39,304 nucleotides of DNA from NCBI GenBank assembly GCA_903914955.1, contig CAIWRB010000232.1, forward strand, positions 1 to 39,304, written 5' to 3'. Origin of the DNA: an uncultured Chloroflexota bacterium (lineage in GTDB: Bacteria; Chloroflexota; Anaerolineae; Anaerolineales; Villigracilaceae). How positions within the stretch are numbered: the first letter of the stretch is position 1; each line of letters starts with the position of its first letter. Positions 1,524 through 12,571 of this stretch are shown here, one piece after another. The notes under the pieces were generated by a model. That model ran no database searches, was not told the origin of the DNA, and saw nothing but the letters and a program-made list of their open reading frames with translations. The position numbers and the translations under genes are program-made.

Positions 1524-2129
1524 TTAGTTCATTGCCTGTCTTCCAGATAAAGCGCGCAACAATGTATTTTGATCTGCGTATTCAAGATCACCTCCAACGG
1601 GCAGACCGCGCGCCAGGCGCGTGACCTTCACACCCATTGGCTCCAACTGTTGACTCAAATAAATAGCGGTCGTATCCCCTTCCATACTTGGATTGGTGGC
1701 GAGAATAACTTCCTGAATCCCTCCTCGCGCGACGCGCTCCACCAATTGTTTGATCTTCAAGTCGTCAGGGCCAACGCCTTCGATGGGAGATAAGACTCCC
1801 TGCAAGACATGATACTTGCCATGAAAACCAGCGGTTCGTTCAAGCGCCACTACATCCAACGCTTCTTCTACAACGCAGATCAATGAATTTTCACGTTTGG
1901 AAGATTCGCAAATTTCGCAGCGTTCACGGCCTGCTTCGGTAATATTGAAACATTCCTTGCAAAACGCGGTATTGACTTTTAAGTTCGCCAGCGCCGCGGA
2001 CAAATCTAGCGAAACATCTTCAGATGCACGCAATAAATAAAAAGCCAGTCGTGAAGCAGACTTTGGCCCAATACCTGGCAGACGCTCGAGGGCGGTGATT
2101 AAACTTTGAATAGATTCTGGAAGAAGCAT
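1524..2129 (-). CDS. recR: Recombination mediator RecR
   Basis: RecR acts with RecO (and RecF) to load RecA on SSB-coated single-stranded DNA in gap repair. The 201-aa product has the N-terminal helix-hairpin-helix (ERLPGIGPKSASRLA), a four-cysteine zinc finger (two CxxC pairs: CKEC and CEIC), and a Toprim domain beginning LICVVEE, ending with the conserved ARGLPVGGDLEYAD segment. The frame is open upstream to 2228, but that start would overlap ybaB by 65 nt and add a non-conserved 33-residue leader. The ATG at 2129 gives the family length (about 200 aa) and the normal MLLPESIQ-type N terminus. It is the last gene of dnaX-ybaB-recR, an order conserved across bacteria, with no strong Shine-Dalgarno. 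Confidence 0.96.
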   Translation of the reverse strand: MLLPESIQSLITALERLPGIGPKSASRLAFYLLRASEDVSLDLSAALANLKVNTAFCKECFNITEAGRERCEICESSKRENSLICVVEEALDVVALERTAGFHGKYHVLQGVLSPIEGVGPDDLKIKQLVERVARGGIQEVILATNPSMEGDTTAIYLSQQLEPMGVKVTRLARGLPVGGDLEYADQNTLLRALSGRQAMN

Positions 2130-2136
2130 AGGTTTT

Positions 2137-2168
2137 ATGTTTGAACGTTGAAACGTGAAAAAGTTAAA
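2137..2168. repeat. Degenerate octamer array (ybaB-recR gap)
   Basis: Four consecutive 8-mers, ATGTTTGA, ACGTTGAA, ACGTGAAA, AAGTTAAA, span the short gap and overlap the ybaB stop codon at 2164-2166. The same periodicity occurs in the dnaK-dnaJ and grpE-dnaK gaps. Confidence 0.6.
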
Positions 2169-2502
2169 ACGGCAACCCACCCGAGAGCGGACCCAATCTC
2201 TGGTTGGCGAGTTCGCGTGATTGATCAAGCGCCATATTTACAACAGAGAGGACAAGATCTTGCAGCATCTCGGCATCTGCATCTTTTAACAACTCAGGGT
2301 CAATAATTACTTCACGACATTTCTGGTCGCCGGTCATGGTGACTTTGATCGCTCCGCCGCCAGCCGTTGCAGTGACCGTCTCATCCGCAAGTTTGATTTG
2401 CGCTTCCTCCATCTGCTTTTGCACGCGCTGTAATTGCTGCATCATGCCTGATTGTGATTGCCCACCGCCCATCGATGAGCCTTTGTTAAATCCTTTTGCC
2501 AT
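2164..2502 (-). CDS. YbaB/EbfC family nucleoid-associated protein
   Basis: Small DNA-binding dimer of the YbaB/EbfC family, thought to act as a nucleoid-associated protein and often linked to RecR function. The 112-aa protein has a Gly/Ser/Gln-rich N-terminal tail (residues 1-20), a coiled helix MMQQLQRVQKQMEEAQ, the conserved beta core (TAGGGAIKVTMTGDQ, REVIIDPE) and the C-terminal helical dimer region ending GGLPF. Length is typical (about 100-115 aa). It sits between dnaX and recR, the classic arrangement. Confidence 0.95.
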   Translation of the reverse strand: MAKGFNKGSSMGGGQSQSGMMQQLQRVQKQMEEAQIKLADETVTATAGGGAIKVTMTGDQKCREVIIDPELLKDADAEMLQDLVLSVVNMALDQSRELANQRLGPLSGGLPF

Positions 2503-7745: not shown

Positions 7746-7787
7746 CACTCGTCACTGATCACTAATACCTATTCACTGCCACTATCC
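7746..7787. repeat. Degenerate heptamer array downstream of dnaJ
   Basis: Six consecutive 7-mers: CACTCGT, CACTGAT, CACTAAT, ACCTATT, CACTGCC, ACTATCC. They resemble the ATCAGTG-type heptameric wobble repeats known from some cyanobacterial and other filamentous bacterial intergenic DNA, and run into the dnaJ stop codon at 7782-7784. Confidence 0.6.
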
Positions 7788-8903
7788 CCCAAATGCATCA
7801 TTCAGCCAATCAAGAAATCCTTTTTCCTGCGGCTTGACCGATGTTCCCAGACTCTCCGCCAACTTCTCGAACAGCTCATGCTGTTCCTTTGTCAACTTGG
7901 ATGGGATGGCAACATTGATCATCACCATTTGATCACCACGGTTTTTACTGCGGACGTGCGGTACGCCCTTGCCTCTAAGATGAAATATTTTTCCAGGCTG
8001 TGTGCCGGCTGGGATCTTCAATTTTTCATCGCCATCGATCGTTGGCACCTGTACTTCTGCACCGAGCACAGCCTGTGCCACATTGATATCAAGGTTTAAC
8101 AAAATATCGTTCTCACGACGTTTGAAGAATTGATGTGGTTTCACATCCAGGACGACAAACAAACTTCCATTCGGTCCGCCAAATGCACCGGGACCGCCTT
8201 CGTTATTCAAGCGGATCTGTGTGCCCGCATCCACACCAGCCGGGATCTGTACTTTCTTCTTTATATTCTTGCGTTCCAAACCAGCGCCGCGACAAGTTTT
8301 ACATGGCGACGAAATTATTTGACCGCGCCCATTGCAGGTTGGGCAAGCCCCAGTCTGCACCATCTGACCTAAAAAGGTCTGACGCACCTGGCGAACTTCA
8401 CCCTGCCCATTACAAGTGGAACATTTTGTGGGCGTTGTACCGGGCTGTGCGCCGTTTCCTTTACACATGGAACAAGTCTCTTCACGTTGAAATTCGATCT
8501 CCTTTTCAACACCGAAGACTGCTTCTTCAAACTTCAAAGATACTTGCATTTGCAAGTCACGACCGCGGCGTGGAGCATTGCGTGAGCGGCGGCCAGTGGA
8601 GAATCCAAATCCACCGAGGATCTCCTCGAACAAGTCGCCGAAATCGGTAGAGTAATCGTGGAAGCCGCCGCTGCCCATGCCGCCAAGCCCTTCCTTGCCA
8701 AAGCGGTCATAGCGCGCGCGCTTATCAGAATCGGAAAGCACACCATAGGCTTCATTGATCTCTTTAAATTTTTCCTCGGCGTCAGTCTCCTTGCTTACAT
8801 CAGGATGAAACTGACGCGCAAGTTTACGGAATGCGCCTTTAAGTTCATCATCCGACGCGCCCTTGCCAACACCAAGAATTTCATAATAATCGCGATTGCT
8901 CAT
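7782..8903 (-). CDS. dnaJ: Chaperone DnaJ (Hsp40)
   Basis: J-domain co-chaperone that stimulates DnaK ATPase and delivers unfolded clients. The 373-aa protein has the J domain with HPD (33-35), a Gly/Phe-rich linker ([12 protein letters not shown] region), four CxxCxGxG zinc repeats ([32 protein letters not shown]) and two C-terminal beta domains. It is a full type-I DnaJ. Last gene of hrcA-grpE-dnaK-dnaJ. No Shine-Dalgarno is visible: the spacer before its ATG is wholly made of octamer repeats, so translation may depend on the upstream gene. Confidence 0.97.
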
Positions 8904-8959
8904 TCGTTTACACGCTTACAGGTTTGCAGGTTAACGTTCGAACCTATCAACTTGTGAAC
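8904..8959. repeat. Seven-unit octamer array filling the dnaK-dnaJ gap
   Basis: The 57-bp gap is almost exactly 7 x 8 bp: TCGTTTAC, ACGCTTAC, AGGTTTGC, AGGTTAAC, GTTCGAAC, CTATCAAC, TTGTGAAC. Units mostly end in AAC or TAC. The array abuts the dnaJ start codon on one side and the dnaK stop on the other. Confidence 0.65.
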
Positions 8960-8960
8960 G

Positions 8961-10856
8961 TTACTCCTGCACTTCACCATCAACAACGTCAGGACCCGCA
9001 CCCTCATTATTGGATGAAGAACCTTCGGCCGCTTCGCCCGCACCCGCGGCTTGACCTTGCTCATAGACAGATGCGCCTATCTTTTGAATGACCAGCCCCA
9101 ACGCTTCCGTAGCGGCTTTGATCTTGTCCACATCCTCACTCAACGCGGCAGACTTTGCCTCCGCGATCTTTGCTTCAACGTCACTGCGAACTTCAGCGGG
9201 GATTTTATCCCCAAATTCACGCAAAGCTTTCTCTCCAGCATAAACCATATTATCGGCATTGTTGCGGGTCTCGATCAATTCCTTGCGCTTGCGATCTTCG
9301 TCAGCGTGTGTTTCCGCGTCTTTGCGCATTTTTTCAATTTCGCCATCGCTCAACCCAGAGGAAGCGGTGATGGTGATGTGTTGTGTATTCCCCGAGGCTT
9401 TGTCTTTCGCGCTGACTTTCATGATGCCGTTCGCGTCCACATCAAAGGTCACTTCAACCTGCGGAACACCGCGCGGTGACGGGGGGATTCCATCCAAAGT
9501 AAATCTGCCTAATGATTTGTTGTCACTCGCCATGGATCGTTCACCTTGCAGAACATGGATCTCGACCTGCGTTTGATTATCAGACGCGGTGGAAAATACC
9601 TGTGATCGGCGTGTAGGGATGGTTGTATTTCGTTCAATTTGAGCGGTGGCAACACCGCCCATGGTTTCAATGGAAAGTGTCAACGGCGTAACATCCAAAA
9701 GTAGAATATCTTTTACTTCTCCACCGAGAACACCAGCCTGGATCGCCGCGCCGATAGCGACCACTTCATCGGGGTTGACTCCTTTGTGCGGGTCTTTGCC
9801 AAAAAATGCGCGGACGCGGTCTTGAATTGCGGGCATACGAGTCATGCCACCCACCAGAACTATTTCATCAATGTTGCCTGCATTTAATCCAGCGTCAGAT
9901 AATGCCTGCTTGACAGGGGCAATGGTTCGGTCGACCAGGTCCGCTGTTAGTTGCTCCAACTTGGCGCGGGACATCGTCATCACCAAATGTTTGGGGCCGC
10001 TTGTGTTCGCAGTCAGATAAGGCAGGTTGATCTCGGTCTGCATCATGGTTGAAAGTTCGATCTTGGCTTTTTCAGAAGCTTCTTTCAAACGCTGTAATGC
10101 CTGACGGTCATTTTGCAGATCGATGCCATTGTCTTTTTTGAATGTCTCGATCAAATGATCCATGATGCGCAGATCAAAATCGTCACCGCCGAGAAAGGTA
10201 TCTCCGCTTGTGGCGCGTACCTGAAAGACTCCATCGCCTACATCCAAAATGGAGACATCGAAAGTGCCTCCGCCCAGGTCATATACGACGATGACTTCAT
10301 TCTTCTTTTTATCCAGACCATACGCGAGGGATGAAGCGGTTGGTTCATTGATGATACGCAAAACTTCAAGACCCGCGATCTTGCCCGCGTCTTTCGTGGC
10401 GTTTCGCTGTGCGTCATTGAAATAGGCGGGGACGGTGATGACGGCTTGCGTGACGGGTTCGCCGAGATAGGCTTCCGCGTCGGCTTTTATTTTCGCGAGG
10501 ATCATCGCTGAAACTTCGGGCGGCGAATAATCTTTTTCATCGAGTGTCACTCGCACATCGCCGTTATCAGCGGCGGTCACGGCATACGGCACGCGTTTCT
10601 TGGTATGCACCACTTGCGCGTCATCGGCTTTGCGTCCCATAAAACGCTTGACTGAAAAAATGGTGTTGTTCGGATTCGTGATGGCTTGATTGCGTGCTAC
10701 ACGCCCCACCAAACGTTCGTGGTTTTTATTGACAGCCACCACAGAAGGGACGAGTCGTTCTCCTTCCGCAGATGGGATCACGATCGGTTCGCCACCCGAC
10801 ATAACGGCGGCCACTGAATTGGTTGTGCCTAGATCTATTCCAATAATTTTGCCCAT
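8961..10856 (-). CDS. dnaK: Chaperone DnaK (Hsp70)
   Basis: ATP-dependent Hsp70 chaperone. The 631-aa protein has the N-terminal nucleotide-binding domain starting [14 protein letters not shown], the phosphate-2 region [14 protein letters not shown], the adenosine motif [10 protein letters not shown], the linker [12 protein letters not shown], the substrate-binding domain and a C-terminal lid. It ends with a Gly/Ser-rich tail and the DVVDGEVQE type motif that contacts DnaJ. Length is typical (about 610-640). A GAGG Shine-Dalgarno lies 5 nt before the ATG. Between grpE and dnaJ in the hrcA operon. Confidence 0.98.
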
Positions 10857-10870
10857 GAATTCCTCGTAAT

Positions 10871-10910
10871 TTTTAACGTTTGCACGTTCGAACGTTTAAA
10901 CATCCAGACG
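10871..10910. repeat. Five-unit octamer array in grpE-dnaK gap
   Basis: Consecutive 8-mers TTTTAACG, TTTGCACG, TTCGAACG, TTTAAACA, TCCAGACG run up to the grpE stop codon (10911-10913). Same ACGTT-rich family as in the dnaK-dnaJ and ybaB-recR gaps. Confidence 0.62.
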
Positions 10911-11465
10911 TTACTGTGCCACCCTCACGAGGGCAGGTCGTATTACACGTTCCCCAAACATGTATCCATTTTGCACGACCGCGATCACGTGTTCGCTTTC
11001 AACGTCAGCATTCGGTTCGTGCGAGATCGCTTCGTGGAAGTTCGGGTCAAATGCGGCGCCTTCCGCCGCAATGCGTTTCACGCCTTCAGCATCCAAAATA
11101 TTTTGGAGTTTACGCGCGATGAGTTCAATGCCGCTGGCCCATGCGTCATCCGGCGGGCGGTTTTGCAACGCACGTTCCAGATCGTCGAGCGCAGGCAAAA
11201 CTTTTTTGATAATGTCGCCTTTCATCGAAGCGTACATCATTTCGTTATCGCGTGCCACACGGTTTTTATAATTCTGAAACTCCGCCTGAGACCTTTGCCA
11301 GCCATCTTTATATTCAGACGCCTTGGAGTGTGCTTCTGCCAACTGACTGAGCAACGCATCCAACTTAGCGACAGGCTGCTCATCCACAACTGGCGTTTCT
11401 TCCGCTGCAGGGGGTTGAGTTGCATCAATTTCTTCTTCGTATATGTCTTTCTTTTTATCAGTCAT
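10911..11465 (-). CDS. grpE: Nucleotide exchange factor GrpE
   Basis: GrpE releases ADP from DnaK. The 184-aa product has an acidic, disordered N-terminal tail (about 1-50), a long coiled-coil helix (DALLSQLAEAHSKASEYKDG onward, with RSQAEFQNYKNRVARD) and the C-terminal beta wing with HEAISHEPN and GYMFGERVIRPALVRVA. The frame is open to a GTG at 11513, but the ATG at 11465 (MTDKKKD) gives the usual N terminus and has a purine-rich GAGAGTGAG segment just upstream. Operon member between hrcA and dnaK. Confidence 0.94.
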   Translation of the reverse strand: MTDKKKDIYEEEIDATQPPAAEETPVVDEQPVAKLDALLSQLAEAHSKASEYKDGWQRSQAEFQNYKNRVARDNEMMYASMKGDIIKKVLPALDDLERALQNRPPDDAWASGIELIARKLQNILDAEGVKRIAAEGAAFDPNFHEAISHEPNADVESEHVIAVVQNGYMFGERVIRPALVRVAQ

Positions 11466-11530
11466 GCTCTCACTCTCAAAAAATAATTTCAAGGAATACG
11501 GACATAAATCCACATTCCAAAATCTAATGT

Positions 11531-12571
11531 TTACTCACTCTCAATACTATCATTCACCAGATTACTTAACAGGCTTGCGACATATCGAACCGTTGGGATC
11601 GTGCGCGCGTAGGACATGCGCATGGGACCTAAAACACCCAAAGTGCCTGTTGCCAGACCGGGCGCGCCATATCTTGCGATGACCATTGAACATTGACGGA
11701 GTTCCTGCCACCCGCCCGCGCCTCCGATCAGAACCTGCAATCCGCCGACACTGCTGTGGGTGGATGCGCGTGCAAGAAAATCCTGCAGATTTGATCTTTC
11801 TTCAAATAGCCGCATGGCCCAACGCGCGTCATCTGAAGACTCTGCGAATTCAGGTTCGCTCAAAACATTGGTCAATCCGTCTGTGTAGATTTCGCCTGAA
11901 GCGCTTTCGGACGTGCGCTTCATATCCTGCACCAGAAGCGTGATGATATCCTGTTCGAGCGCGTCAGTGCGGGATGCCTGGGCCGCGATCGCTTCTCCAG
12001 AAAGGCCAACCAACAGCGAGTTCAGATGTGTTGCGGCCTGACTAAGTCGATCTTGAGTAACGGGTTCGGCCAATGTCAAAACTTGCTGGTCAACTTCACC
12101 GCCATCCAGTACCAAAACCATCAAGACTTGCCGTCCCTGCGTGGAGATCAGCTCAATATGCTTGAAGCGGATCGTTTCGGCGTGCGGTGCTGTGACCAGT
12201 GATACACCCTGTGATTGATGCGCGAGAACTGAAGCGGCCAGAGTCATCCATTGTTCAACATCAGGGCGCACCTGAAAGAATTGATGTGAGATGGTATTTT
12301 GTACCGAGGCTGGCAATTCCGCTTTTTGCATCATCTGTCCGACAAAAATGCGATAGCCTTCTTCGGCTGGCACACGACCGGCGGATGTGTGTGGCTGCCT
12401 GAGGTAGCCCATCTCTGTCAGCGCGGACATTTCATTTCGGACGGTGGCCGTACTCAGGTCAAGGTGAAAGCGCTCTACCAGTCGCTTTGAGCCAACGGGC
12501 TGCGCCGTCTCAATGTAATCACGAATGAGGAGCAATAGAATTGTACGCTGTCTTTCGGTAAGTTCAGGCAT
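11531..12571 (-). CDS. hrcA: Heat-inducible transcription repressor HrcA
   Basis: HrcA represses class I heat-shock operons by binding the CIRCE operator, with GroEL as co-regulator. The 346-aa protein starts MPELTERQRTILLLLIRDYI, then the winged helix with TAQPVGSKRL and STATVRNEM, followed by the GAF-like dimer domain and the C-terminal segment VLGPMRMSYARTIP. Length matches the family. It heads hrcA-grpE-dnaK-dnaJ. No intact CIRCE is visible upstream, and the best promoter would give an almost leaderless mRNA. Confidence 0.95.
   Translation of the reverse strand: MPELTERQRTILLLLIRDYIETAQPVGSKRLVERFHLDLSTATVRNEMSALTEMGYLRQPHTSAGRVPAEEGYRIFVGQMMQKAELPASVQNTISHQFFQVRPDVEQWMTLAASVLAHQSQGVSLVTAPHAETIRFKHIELISTQGRQVLMVLVLDGGEVDQQVLTLAEPVTQDRLSQAATHLNSLLVGLSGEAIAAQASRTDALEQDIITLLVQDMKRTSESASGEIYTDGLTNVLSEPEFAESSDDARWAMRLFEERSNLQDFLARASTHSSVGGLQVLIGGAGGWQELRQCSMVIARYGAPGLATGTLGVLGPMRMSYARTIPTVRYVASLLSNLVNDSIESE

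Follow-up and report, generated by a model that had tools for sequence, protein, structure and literature searches.

The dnaK-dnaJ spacer of a Chloroflexi genome is a worn octamer version of a palindromic repeat that is built mostly of heptamers in its genus

The window, that is, the whole stretch of 39,304 nucleotides analysed here, is contig C232 of a 4.4-Mb draft genome in 470 contigs (G000). Its minus strand carries, in this order, hrcA (11531..12571), grpE (10911..11513), dnaK (8961..10856), dnaJ (7782..8903) and a nudix gene, followed further along by dnaX, ybaB (2164..2502) and recR (1524..2129). All of these genes except grpE and the nudix gene score above the NCBIfam cut-off (TIGR00331 for hrcA, TIGR02350 for dnaK, TIGR02349 for dnaJ, TIGR00103 for ybaB and TIGR00615 for recR); grpE is recognized by GrpE models, the best of which, PRK14140, falls just under its cut-off, and its start is uncertain (11465 according to the gene finder). 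The nearest named record is a Chloroflexi MAG from LacPavin (L006), the DnaJ of which is 99% identical to that of the window, and the next-nearest DnaJ relatives belong to Anaerolineales and other Chloroflexi MAGs. A search against Rfam 15 at the gathering score gave no match in the dnaK-dnaJ spacer and, in the entire window, yielded only a partial 16S rRNA on the minus strand (positions 1-1039), which is truncated by the contig end.

The spacer between dnaK and dnaJ (8904..8960, minus strand) is 57 bp long and consists of an imperfect palindrome of degenerate 8-bp units. The original prediction described it as a run of octamers, an observation that is real and incomplete. The identity at lag 8 is 0.59, compared with 0.30 at lag 7 and at most 0.23 at the remaining lags from 5 to 12, and none of 4000 dinucleotide shuffles reached the lag-8 score, even when the best of lags 5-12 was taken for each shuffle. 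Tandem Repeats Finder reported no array at 8904-8960, so that the spacer does not qualify as a tandem repeat of near-identical units. Two features had been overlooked: the spacer is an imperfect inverted repeat, and the final dnaK codons, CAG GAG TAA, contain the Shine-Dalgarno-like sequence AGGAG (8964..8968, minus strand). In the mRNA sense, a 20-nt 5' arm adjoining the dnaK stop codon (8941..8960) is followed by a 16-nt loop, a 20-nt 3' arm (8905..8924), a single base and the ATG of dnaJ, and the two arms, when aligned, pair by Watson-Crick rules at 15 of 20 positions. The inverted repeat, which extends from one coding sequence to the other, has a p value of 0.0085 (2000 shuffles); both the 8-bp period and the inverted repeat exceed chance, the latter less strongly. 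Inspection of the sequence also bore out the claim that dnaJ has no Shine-Dalgarno (SD) sequence between its ATG and the array. The spacer does not have the form of an intrinsic terminator, a GC-rich stem with a T run behind it on the mRNA strand, as a single base separates the 3' arm from the ATG.

Related octamers had been announced for two other gaps, and this was confirmed for the first of them and remained marginal for the second. The grpE-dnaK spacer (10857..10910, minus strand) is written in the same octamer dialect as the dnaK-dnaJ spacer, with a lag-8 identity of 0.50 (p 0.00025, or 0.003 with lags 5-12 left open), 10-nt arms at 10891-10900 and 10871-10880, and a GAGG between the array and dnaK; Tandem Repeats Finder returned one weak row, with a score of 30, at 10875-10896. 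The ybaB-recR spacer (2130..2163, minus strand) has the same dialect and is short and marginally periodic (lag 8 0.62, lag 7 0.59; p 0.012, or 0.075 with lags left open). At the window's spacers the arrays do abut the upstream stop codons. When folded as RNA, the mRNA strand of the dnaK-dnaJ spacer gives a z of -1.42 (17 of 200 shuffles; -1.08 and 12 of 100 in a rerun) and the opposite strand -2.34. The grpE-dnaK gap (z -0.12) and the ybaB-recR gap, scored at 2136-2180 (z -0.04), fold no better than shuffled sequence; given these values, the spacers of the window are weak as RNA hairpins. The dnaX-ybaB spacer (2503-2563) contains a 9-nt inverted repeat, CGATATTCG, with an RNA fold z of -3.15, and this dialect recurs at the same junction in L165, L171, L173 and L183.

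The 8-bp period is a local dialect; across the genus, 7-nt units prevail. The expectation that an octamer period would emerge across the genome was not borne out: in 130 sampled intergenic regions of the window's genome, autocorrelation against shuffles gave a z of 0.4 at lag 8 and of 3.8 at lag 7, in a sample that includes five contigs chosen for an octamer match, which should favour lag 8. With this lag-8 value, octamers as a genome-wide rule were discarded for this genome. The corresponding values for lags 8 and 7 are -0.1 and 6.1 in 181 regions of the same-genus genome G025, and 7.5 and 19.4 in 167 regions of 17 same-genus dnaJ neighbourhoods (L007-L023). Because controls also reach high values at lag 7 (z 4.1 for Firmicutes loci and 4.3 for L024-L042), the lag-7 signal of the two genomes is unspecific by itself, and that of 19.4 is specific. 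Inside the arms of 161 palindromes, the identity is 0.55/0.54 at lag 7, 0.34/0.35 at lag 8 and at most 0.27 at the other lags from 2 to 12. The sequence AACGTTNNAACGTT is present at five places in the window's genome, versus one for its reversed control.

For the comparison of the dnaK-dnaJ junction among relatives, a full-length dnaJ was found in 32 of 36 same-genus genomes (it was absent from G009, G021, G022 and G034). Together with the window, 18 named loci and nine genomes from other families, these genomes provided 60 spacers from 60 loci, of which 55 are distinct; the 46 of these with a DnaJ of more than 70% identity constitute the same-genus set. In this set, the fold z is below -2 for 42 spacers, with a median of -4.8; those of the window, L006, G011 and G025 miss this threshold. 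Lag 7 scores best in 32 spacers, lag 8 in nine and another lag in five, and 38 of the 45 spacers of up to 130 nt are palindromic at p ≤0.01. Measured from its base, the stem is separated from the dnaK stop by a median of 2 nt and from the dnaJ ATG by a median of 9 nt. The window's spacer is a worn, octamer-dialect copy of this class of palindromic repeats, which is mostly heptameric in the genus. The original interpretation is partly supported: variable letters within a fixed period, placement at gene ends and a potential influence on the mRNA between chaperone genes all agree with hairpins that start so close to the upstream stop codon.

Hairpins at this junction extend beyond the genus. The fold z is below -2 in five of nine dnaK-dnaJ spacers from other families of the order. 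A wider set of 62 loci (L024-L085) provided 39 spacers of 20-400 nt that were scored, four spacers falling outside this range and 19 loci having no dnaK-dnaJ pair with a spacer; z is below -2 in 15 of 16 spacers from L025-L042, which bear mostly Chloroflexi or Anaerolineales labels, and in 14 of 23 from the more distant loci. Many of these hairpins have no 7/8 repeats visible by eye and several precede an ordinary SD, so that they are like those of the genus in place and not in make. At the outgroup loci L024 and L026, the dnaK stop and the dnaJ start overlap and there is no spacer. The dnaK-dnaJ spacer of L083 (Nitrospirae label) looks like a heptamer-type palindrome (z -5.5). In Salmonella, the dnaK-dnaJ intergenic region is also long, at 85 nt, and the transcripts of the two genes diverge when Mg2+ is scarce (PMC12077118).

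The distribution of the repeats over junctions is uneven. Among sampled spacers 32-130 bp long, 18 of 64 co-directional ones in the window's genome, 23 of 97 in G025 and 131 of 226 in L156-L186 have a 7/8 period at z above 2, versus 0 of 7, 2 of 12 and 1 of 9 divergent spacers, respectively; none of these divergent spacers is both periodic and folded (0/7, 0/12 and 0/9). L156-L186 are dnaK-dnaJ neighbourhoods, which are unusually rich in period, and their numbers are therefore not genome-wide. Occupancy by folded spacers (24-250 nt) differs over ten junctions of the neighbourhood (chi-square p 7e-10), being 30/33 at dnaK-dnaJ, 25/27 at grpE-dnaK, 15/23 at ybaB-recR, 15/26 at hrcA-grpE and, at the low end, 1/21 upstream of a gene labelled kinase-like from its sequence by eye, which is a co-directional junction of similar length. 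The dnaK-dnaJ occupancy also differs from that of sampled co-directional spacers of G000 and G025 (57/161, p 2e-9), a sample that itself contains two dnaK-dnaJ spacers. At an eleventh junction, upstream of hrcA, 17 of 17 spacers are folded and one of 17 is periodic; a CIRCE element as the source of these hairpins was ruled out, with 0 of 17 matching. Palindromes with a 9-nt period (ACCGCGAAG and CACAGATTT types) were also seen in co-directional spacers (L022:13342-13429, L022:16223-16324 and L148:6414-6479).

The letters that build the hairpins vary by species, and a single shared sequence family at dnaK-dnaJ was rejected for this reason. The spacer is not conserved base by base, a pattern that the original prediction had named as speaking against its own reading; the letters differ across the genus, and only sub-groups picked by dialect can be aligned, at grpE-dnaK as at dnaK-dnaJ. 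The same-genus spacers comprise six or more dialects, whose units measure 7 or 8 nt and have cores such as GTC, GTT, ACGTT, TTAG/TTGG, AGAG and AAGTGG, plus unrelated palindromes: four of the 46 dnaK-dnaJ spacers, 93-104 bp long, hold a palindrome of the TTGCGAGG / TGTCATTGCGAGG type, and two hold a short GC-rich hairpin of 32 bp. The TGTCATTGCGAGG ... CCTCGCAATGACA palindrome was observed at numerous junctions in the genus, dnaK-dnaJ and grpE-dnaK among them, in spacers of ~93-146 bp (L172, L173, L179, L183 and L186), and short palindromes, GTAGGGGC...GCCCCTAC or variants, in the grpE-dnaK and ybaB-recR spacers of L163, L164 and L174. The dnaK-dnaJ spacer of G005 (L160) reaches 211 bp and by eye is made of 7-mers in its 5' arm and 8-mers in its 3' arm, as if each arm had expanded independently.

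Dialect tracks phylogeny only weakly. On a tree of DnaK and DnaJ, parsimony gives at least 29 changes of dialect label over the 46 spacers, compared with 32.0 on average when the labels are shuffled (38 of 500 shuffles are as low); the labels were set by rule and eight of the 46 were then corrected by eye, with 29 changes either way. By our own count, the tree contains 12 sister pairs, six with the same label and six with different ones. Since some spacers mix GTC and GTT units (L163 and L166 at grpE-dnaK), the dialects may partly interconvert by paired substitutions and not by replacement; together with the six agreeing sister pairs, these mixed spacers suggest that part of the dialect change may be gradual.

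Dialects are also shared within genomes. The junctions of one genome have 5-, 6- and 7-mers in common (z 4.0 to 4.8), a signal reached by 0 of 500 label shuffles in each of six tests and to which the base composition of the genome could add. These tests covered eight of the eleven junctions, with all 170 spacers or with the 108 periodic ones, the dnaJ-nudix junction and those preceding hrcA and the kinase-like gene being left out. The GTT heptamer pattern, with overlapping matches within one array counted singly, matches 254 times in G030, 198 times in G005 and twice in the window's genome, and has zero matches in G012, G022, G025 and G026. Its reversed control is lower in same-genus genomes, except for G006 (12 vs 6), G008 (1 vs 1) and the genomes with zero matches, and exceeds the pattern in G038, G052, G054 and G056 of other families. 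The GTC heptamer pattern matches in four of 120 genomes of the class (G000, G025, G032 and, from another family, G067) and gives no match in G169, a fourth same-genus genome, and its reversed control gives more matches in G084, G118, G122, G150 and G170. Because of these few genomes and the commoner control in five others, the exact pattern is considered narrow and a class-wide GTC heptamer pattern was rejected.

These data bear on the simplest explanation, namely that the spacer is an array of octamers created by slippage, with no function or structure. The 8-bp period found in two of the three gaps, and marginally in the third, agrees with it, and the difference in unit length between the G005 arms, as judged by eye, indicates that slippage probably shapes the arms. 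However, slippage alone is insufficient because it accounts neither for two complementary arms nor for dialects common to the junctions of one genome. Moreover, 7-nt units dominate elsewhere, and the difference in copy number expected between close relatives was not seen, the spacers of the window and of L006 both measuring 57 bp. As a complete account, a plain slippage array is thus very improbable.

The trait retained at dnaK-dnaJ is most likely the stem-loop, because a stem-loop is usually present there while the letters vary. We assign a probability of about 0.4 to the reading that the palindromic repeat is kept as such, as a putative intercistronic hairpin in the mRNA between dnaK and dnaJ. 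The genomes of the genus would hold a pool of fold-back repeats of degenerate 7- or 8-nt units, in a mix of dialects peculiar to each genome, and these repeats would sit at co-directional junctions, from the upstream stop codon onwards, sparing little beyond the ribosome-binding stretch. Presumably the junction is transcribed across and the RNA folds in the cell, in which case the hairpin would shield the upstream portion of the mRNA at its 3' end or limit read-through, thereby lowering dnaJ relative to dnaK and affecting the DnaK:DnaJ ratio, and would place the stop codon of dnaK near the start codon of dnaJ. The dialects themselves may change by copying between loci, slippage and paired substitutions. 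In favour of this reading are the folds and palindromes that recur in the same-genus spacers, the site-specific occupancy, the unrelated palindromes in one slot, the weak fit of dialect to the tree, the sharing of dialects within a genome, the hairpins of other taxa and the compensatory changes described below. Against it count the weak fold of the window's own copy, the mismatch and covariation results given below, the five of nine spacers from other families, the agreeing sister pairs and mixed spacers, and the two outgroup loci in which the genes overlap.

Selection for pairing at the level of the mRNA should tolerate G-U mismatches and not A-C mismatches, whereas a process acting on DNA treats both alike. 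In alignments that score all mismatches equally, periodic palindromes have 106 G-U and 103 A-C, the TTGCGAGG type (27 spacers) has 12 and 37, and terminator-like hairpins, used as a control, have 9 and 1. With the TTGCGAGG type excluded, the G-U:A-C counts are 38:26 at dnaK-dnaJ (p 0.17), 22:16 at grpE-dnaK, 7:17 at ybaB-recR and 69:46 in 100 other co-directional spacers with palindromes, terminators among them. The pair counts of RNAalifold were set aside for this question, as the program rewards G-U. Changes on both sides, that is, compensatory ones, affect 5/22, 4/19 and 2/18 predicted pairs, but the covariation contributes little or counts against the fold in RNAalifold (terms of -0.33, 0.06 and 0.56 kcal/mol). 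Selection on the RNA strand at dnaK-dnaJ is possible but unproven.

Because the comparison of G-U with A-C reveals no clear selection on the RNA strand, it is nearly as likely that the repeats are neutral or selfish palindromic DNA, spread by template switching between arms, slippage and copying between loci. Such elements would persist where they are harmless, which in operons is the stretch from the stop codon to the ribosome-binding site, and dnaK-dnaJ would be a tolerant or preferred site. The balanced mismatches of the periodic palindromes and the A-C excess of the TTGCGAGG type fit this explanation, as does the genome specificity of the dialects, and the absence of periodic and folded repeats from the divergent spacers is as expected if promoters exclude them. 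Further support is provided by the 5' arm, which is purine-rich in 110 of 139 palindromes (palindrome score ≥12) and pyrimidine-rich in 15: since the 5' arm of an inverted repeat reads alike on either strand, this bias points to the making of the element and not to the transcript. Nevertheless, an occupancy of 30/33 at one junction versus 1/21 at another, along with unrelated palindromes in the same slot, exceeds what tolerance predicts, unless insertion is guided. Other taxa, too, have hairpins of unrelated sequence in this slot, and G-U does exceed A-C in the 100 other co-directional spacers, terminators included.

It is possible, although rather unlikely, that the junctions are sockets for interchangeable hairpins, into which a genome-specific pool of 7/8-mers swaps new letters while selection keeps the stem-loop. 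Palindromes would then be made and swapped at the DNA level, and structure would be conserved without conserved sequence.

A different role, which is unlikely, would be to loop out the spacer so that the AGGAG or AAGGA at the dnaK end serves the SD-less start codon of dnaJ. This arrangement fits the loop-out model for phage T4 genes. An SD of at least 4 nt lies between the hairpin and the dnaJ ATG in three of 33 genomes, versus 27 of 27 for dnaK, and AGGA is present within the last two dnaK codons at 36 of the 46 same-genus dnaK ends. In addition, AAGGAG encodes 14 of 42 Lys-Glu dnaK ends, compared with 55 of 537 Lys-Glu pairs in the neighbourhood, with a p value of 1e-4 that is too small because the species are related; the last Lys codon changes nine times on the tree. 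Among Lys-Glu pairs in the last 16 codons of genes, AAGGAG accounts for 3/20 in G000 and 4/33 in G025. Without the predicted stems, the median distance from this SD to the ATG is 13 nt (10th-90th percentile 8-18), versus 69 nt in linear sequence, but any hairpin that fills the spacer leaves a short residual distance. The same layout at ybaB-recR also argues against this role, as an SD is found at the ybaB end in 0 of 23 cases and before recR in 4 of 23, and in the outgroup G043, too, the hairpin is strong and neither position shows an SD. By the same measure, 22-55% of genes are without an SD, a share that varies with genome and spacing class. A broader count, in which 32 of 33 dnaK ends appeared SD-like, was discarded, as its score accepts GTGA, which is held by conserved codons anyway.

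If it is the stem-loop that is retained, routine screens for intergenic sequence conservation miss such elements, and these orthologous junctions, with at least 29 label changes over 46 spacers, would amount to a natural experiment on the requirements of an intercistronic hairpin. If instead the repeats are neutral, they make it feasible to study how heptamer palindromes, which were described for cyanobacteria, spread in a further phylum. Among the papers listed in a literature search light on subscription journals, no title or abstract opening described such spacers in Chloroflexota.

Similar elements are known from other bacteria, and the comparisons below draw on portions of the cited papers. 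The STRR (short tandemly repeated repetitive sequences) of filamentous cyanobacteria are usually 7-bp repeats that form hairpins and lie in intergenic regions at many places, including a hairpin between hupS and hupL, and they have been proposed to stabilise transcripts or to couple translation (PMC2670836); the spacers of the Nostoc hyp operon likewise contain repeats and palindromic hairpins (PMC2408588). As far as these portions go, the repeats of the genus resemble STRR in being mostly 7 nt long, hairpin-forming and located in spacers between genes, and differ in their Anaerolineales host, their degenerate units and the several dialects per genome. The window's spacer departs from the 7-bp unit (lag 8 0.59, lag 7 0.30), whereas the genus conforms to it, lag 7 being best in 32 of 46 spacers. 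Dispersal is comparable, with periodic co-directional spacers at 18/64 in G000 and 23/97 in G025, and so is hairpin formation (42/46 same-genus spacers with z below -2), the window's own copy being weak (z -1.42). The host is not a filamentous cyanobacterium, as the nearest DnaJ relatives are Chloroflexi/Anaerolineales MAG records. Variable but structured intergenic regions in cyanobacteria were reportedly described by Jackman and Mulligan in 1995.

The TAACTGA repeats of Beggiatoaceae, Cyanobacteria and Bacteroidetes are intergenic heptamers near start codons, where canonical ribosome-binding sites are rare (PMC4679880, which also cites Mrazek 2007). In the portion consulted they are exact direct repeats with no predicted hairpin, whereas the spacers of the genus have two complementary arms. 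REP sequences and REPINs are short, high-copy palindromes with a hypothesised role in termination or mRNA stability (PMC3733652), but a REP family shares one sequence, while the palindromes of the genus differ between species. With regard to a possible function, stem-loops at 3' ends inside the cip-cel operon of Clostridium cellulolyticum set the ratios of its transcripts (PMC4423207, in part). The spacers of the genus, known from sequence alone, are like this selective RNA processing and stabilisation system in having predicted stem-loops between cistrons. Finally, in the P6b stem of the Nostoc trnL intron, one class of 7-nt motifs replaces another and the structure stays similar (PMC4476775, in part). 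The P6b stem lies inside a group I intron and has two motif classes, unlike the spacers of the genus, which nevertheless resemble it, with its Class I and Class II motifs, in that their repeat letters vary and a stem is usually present.
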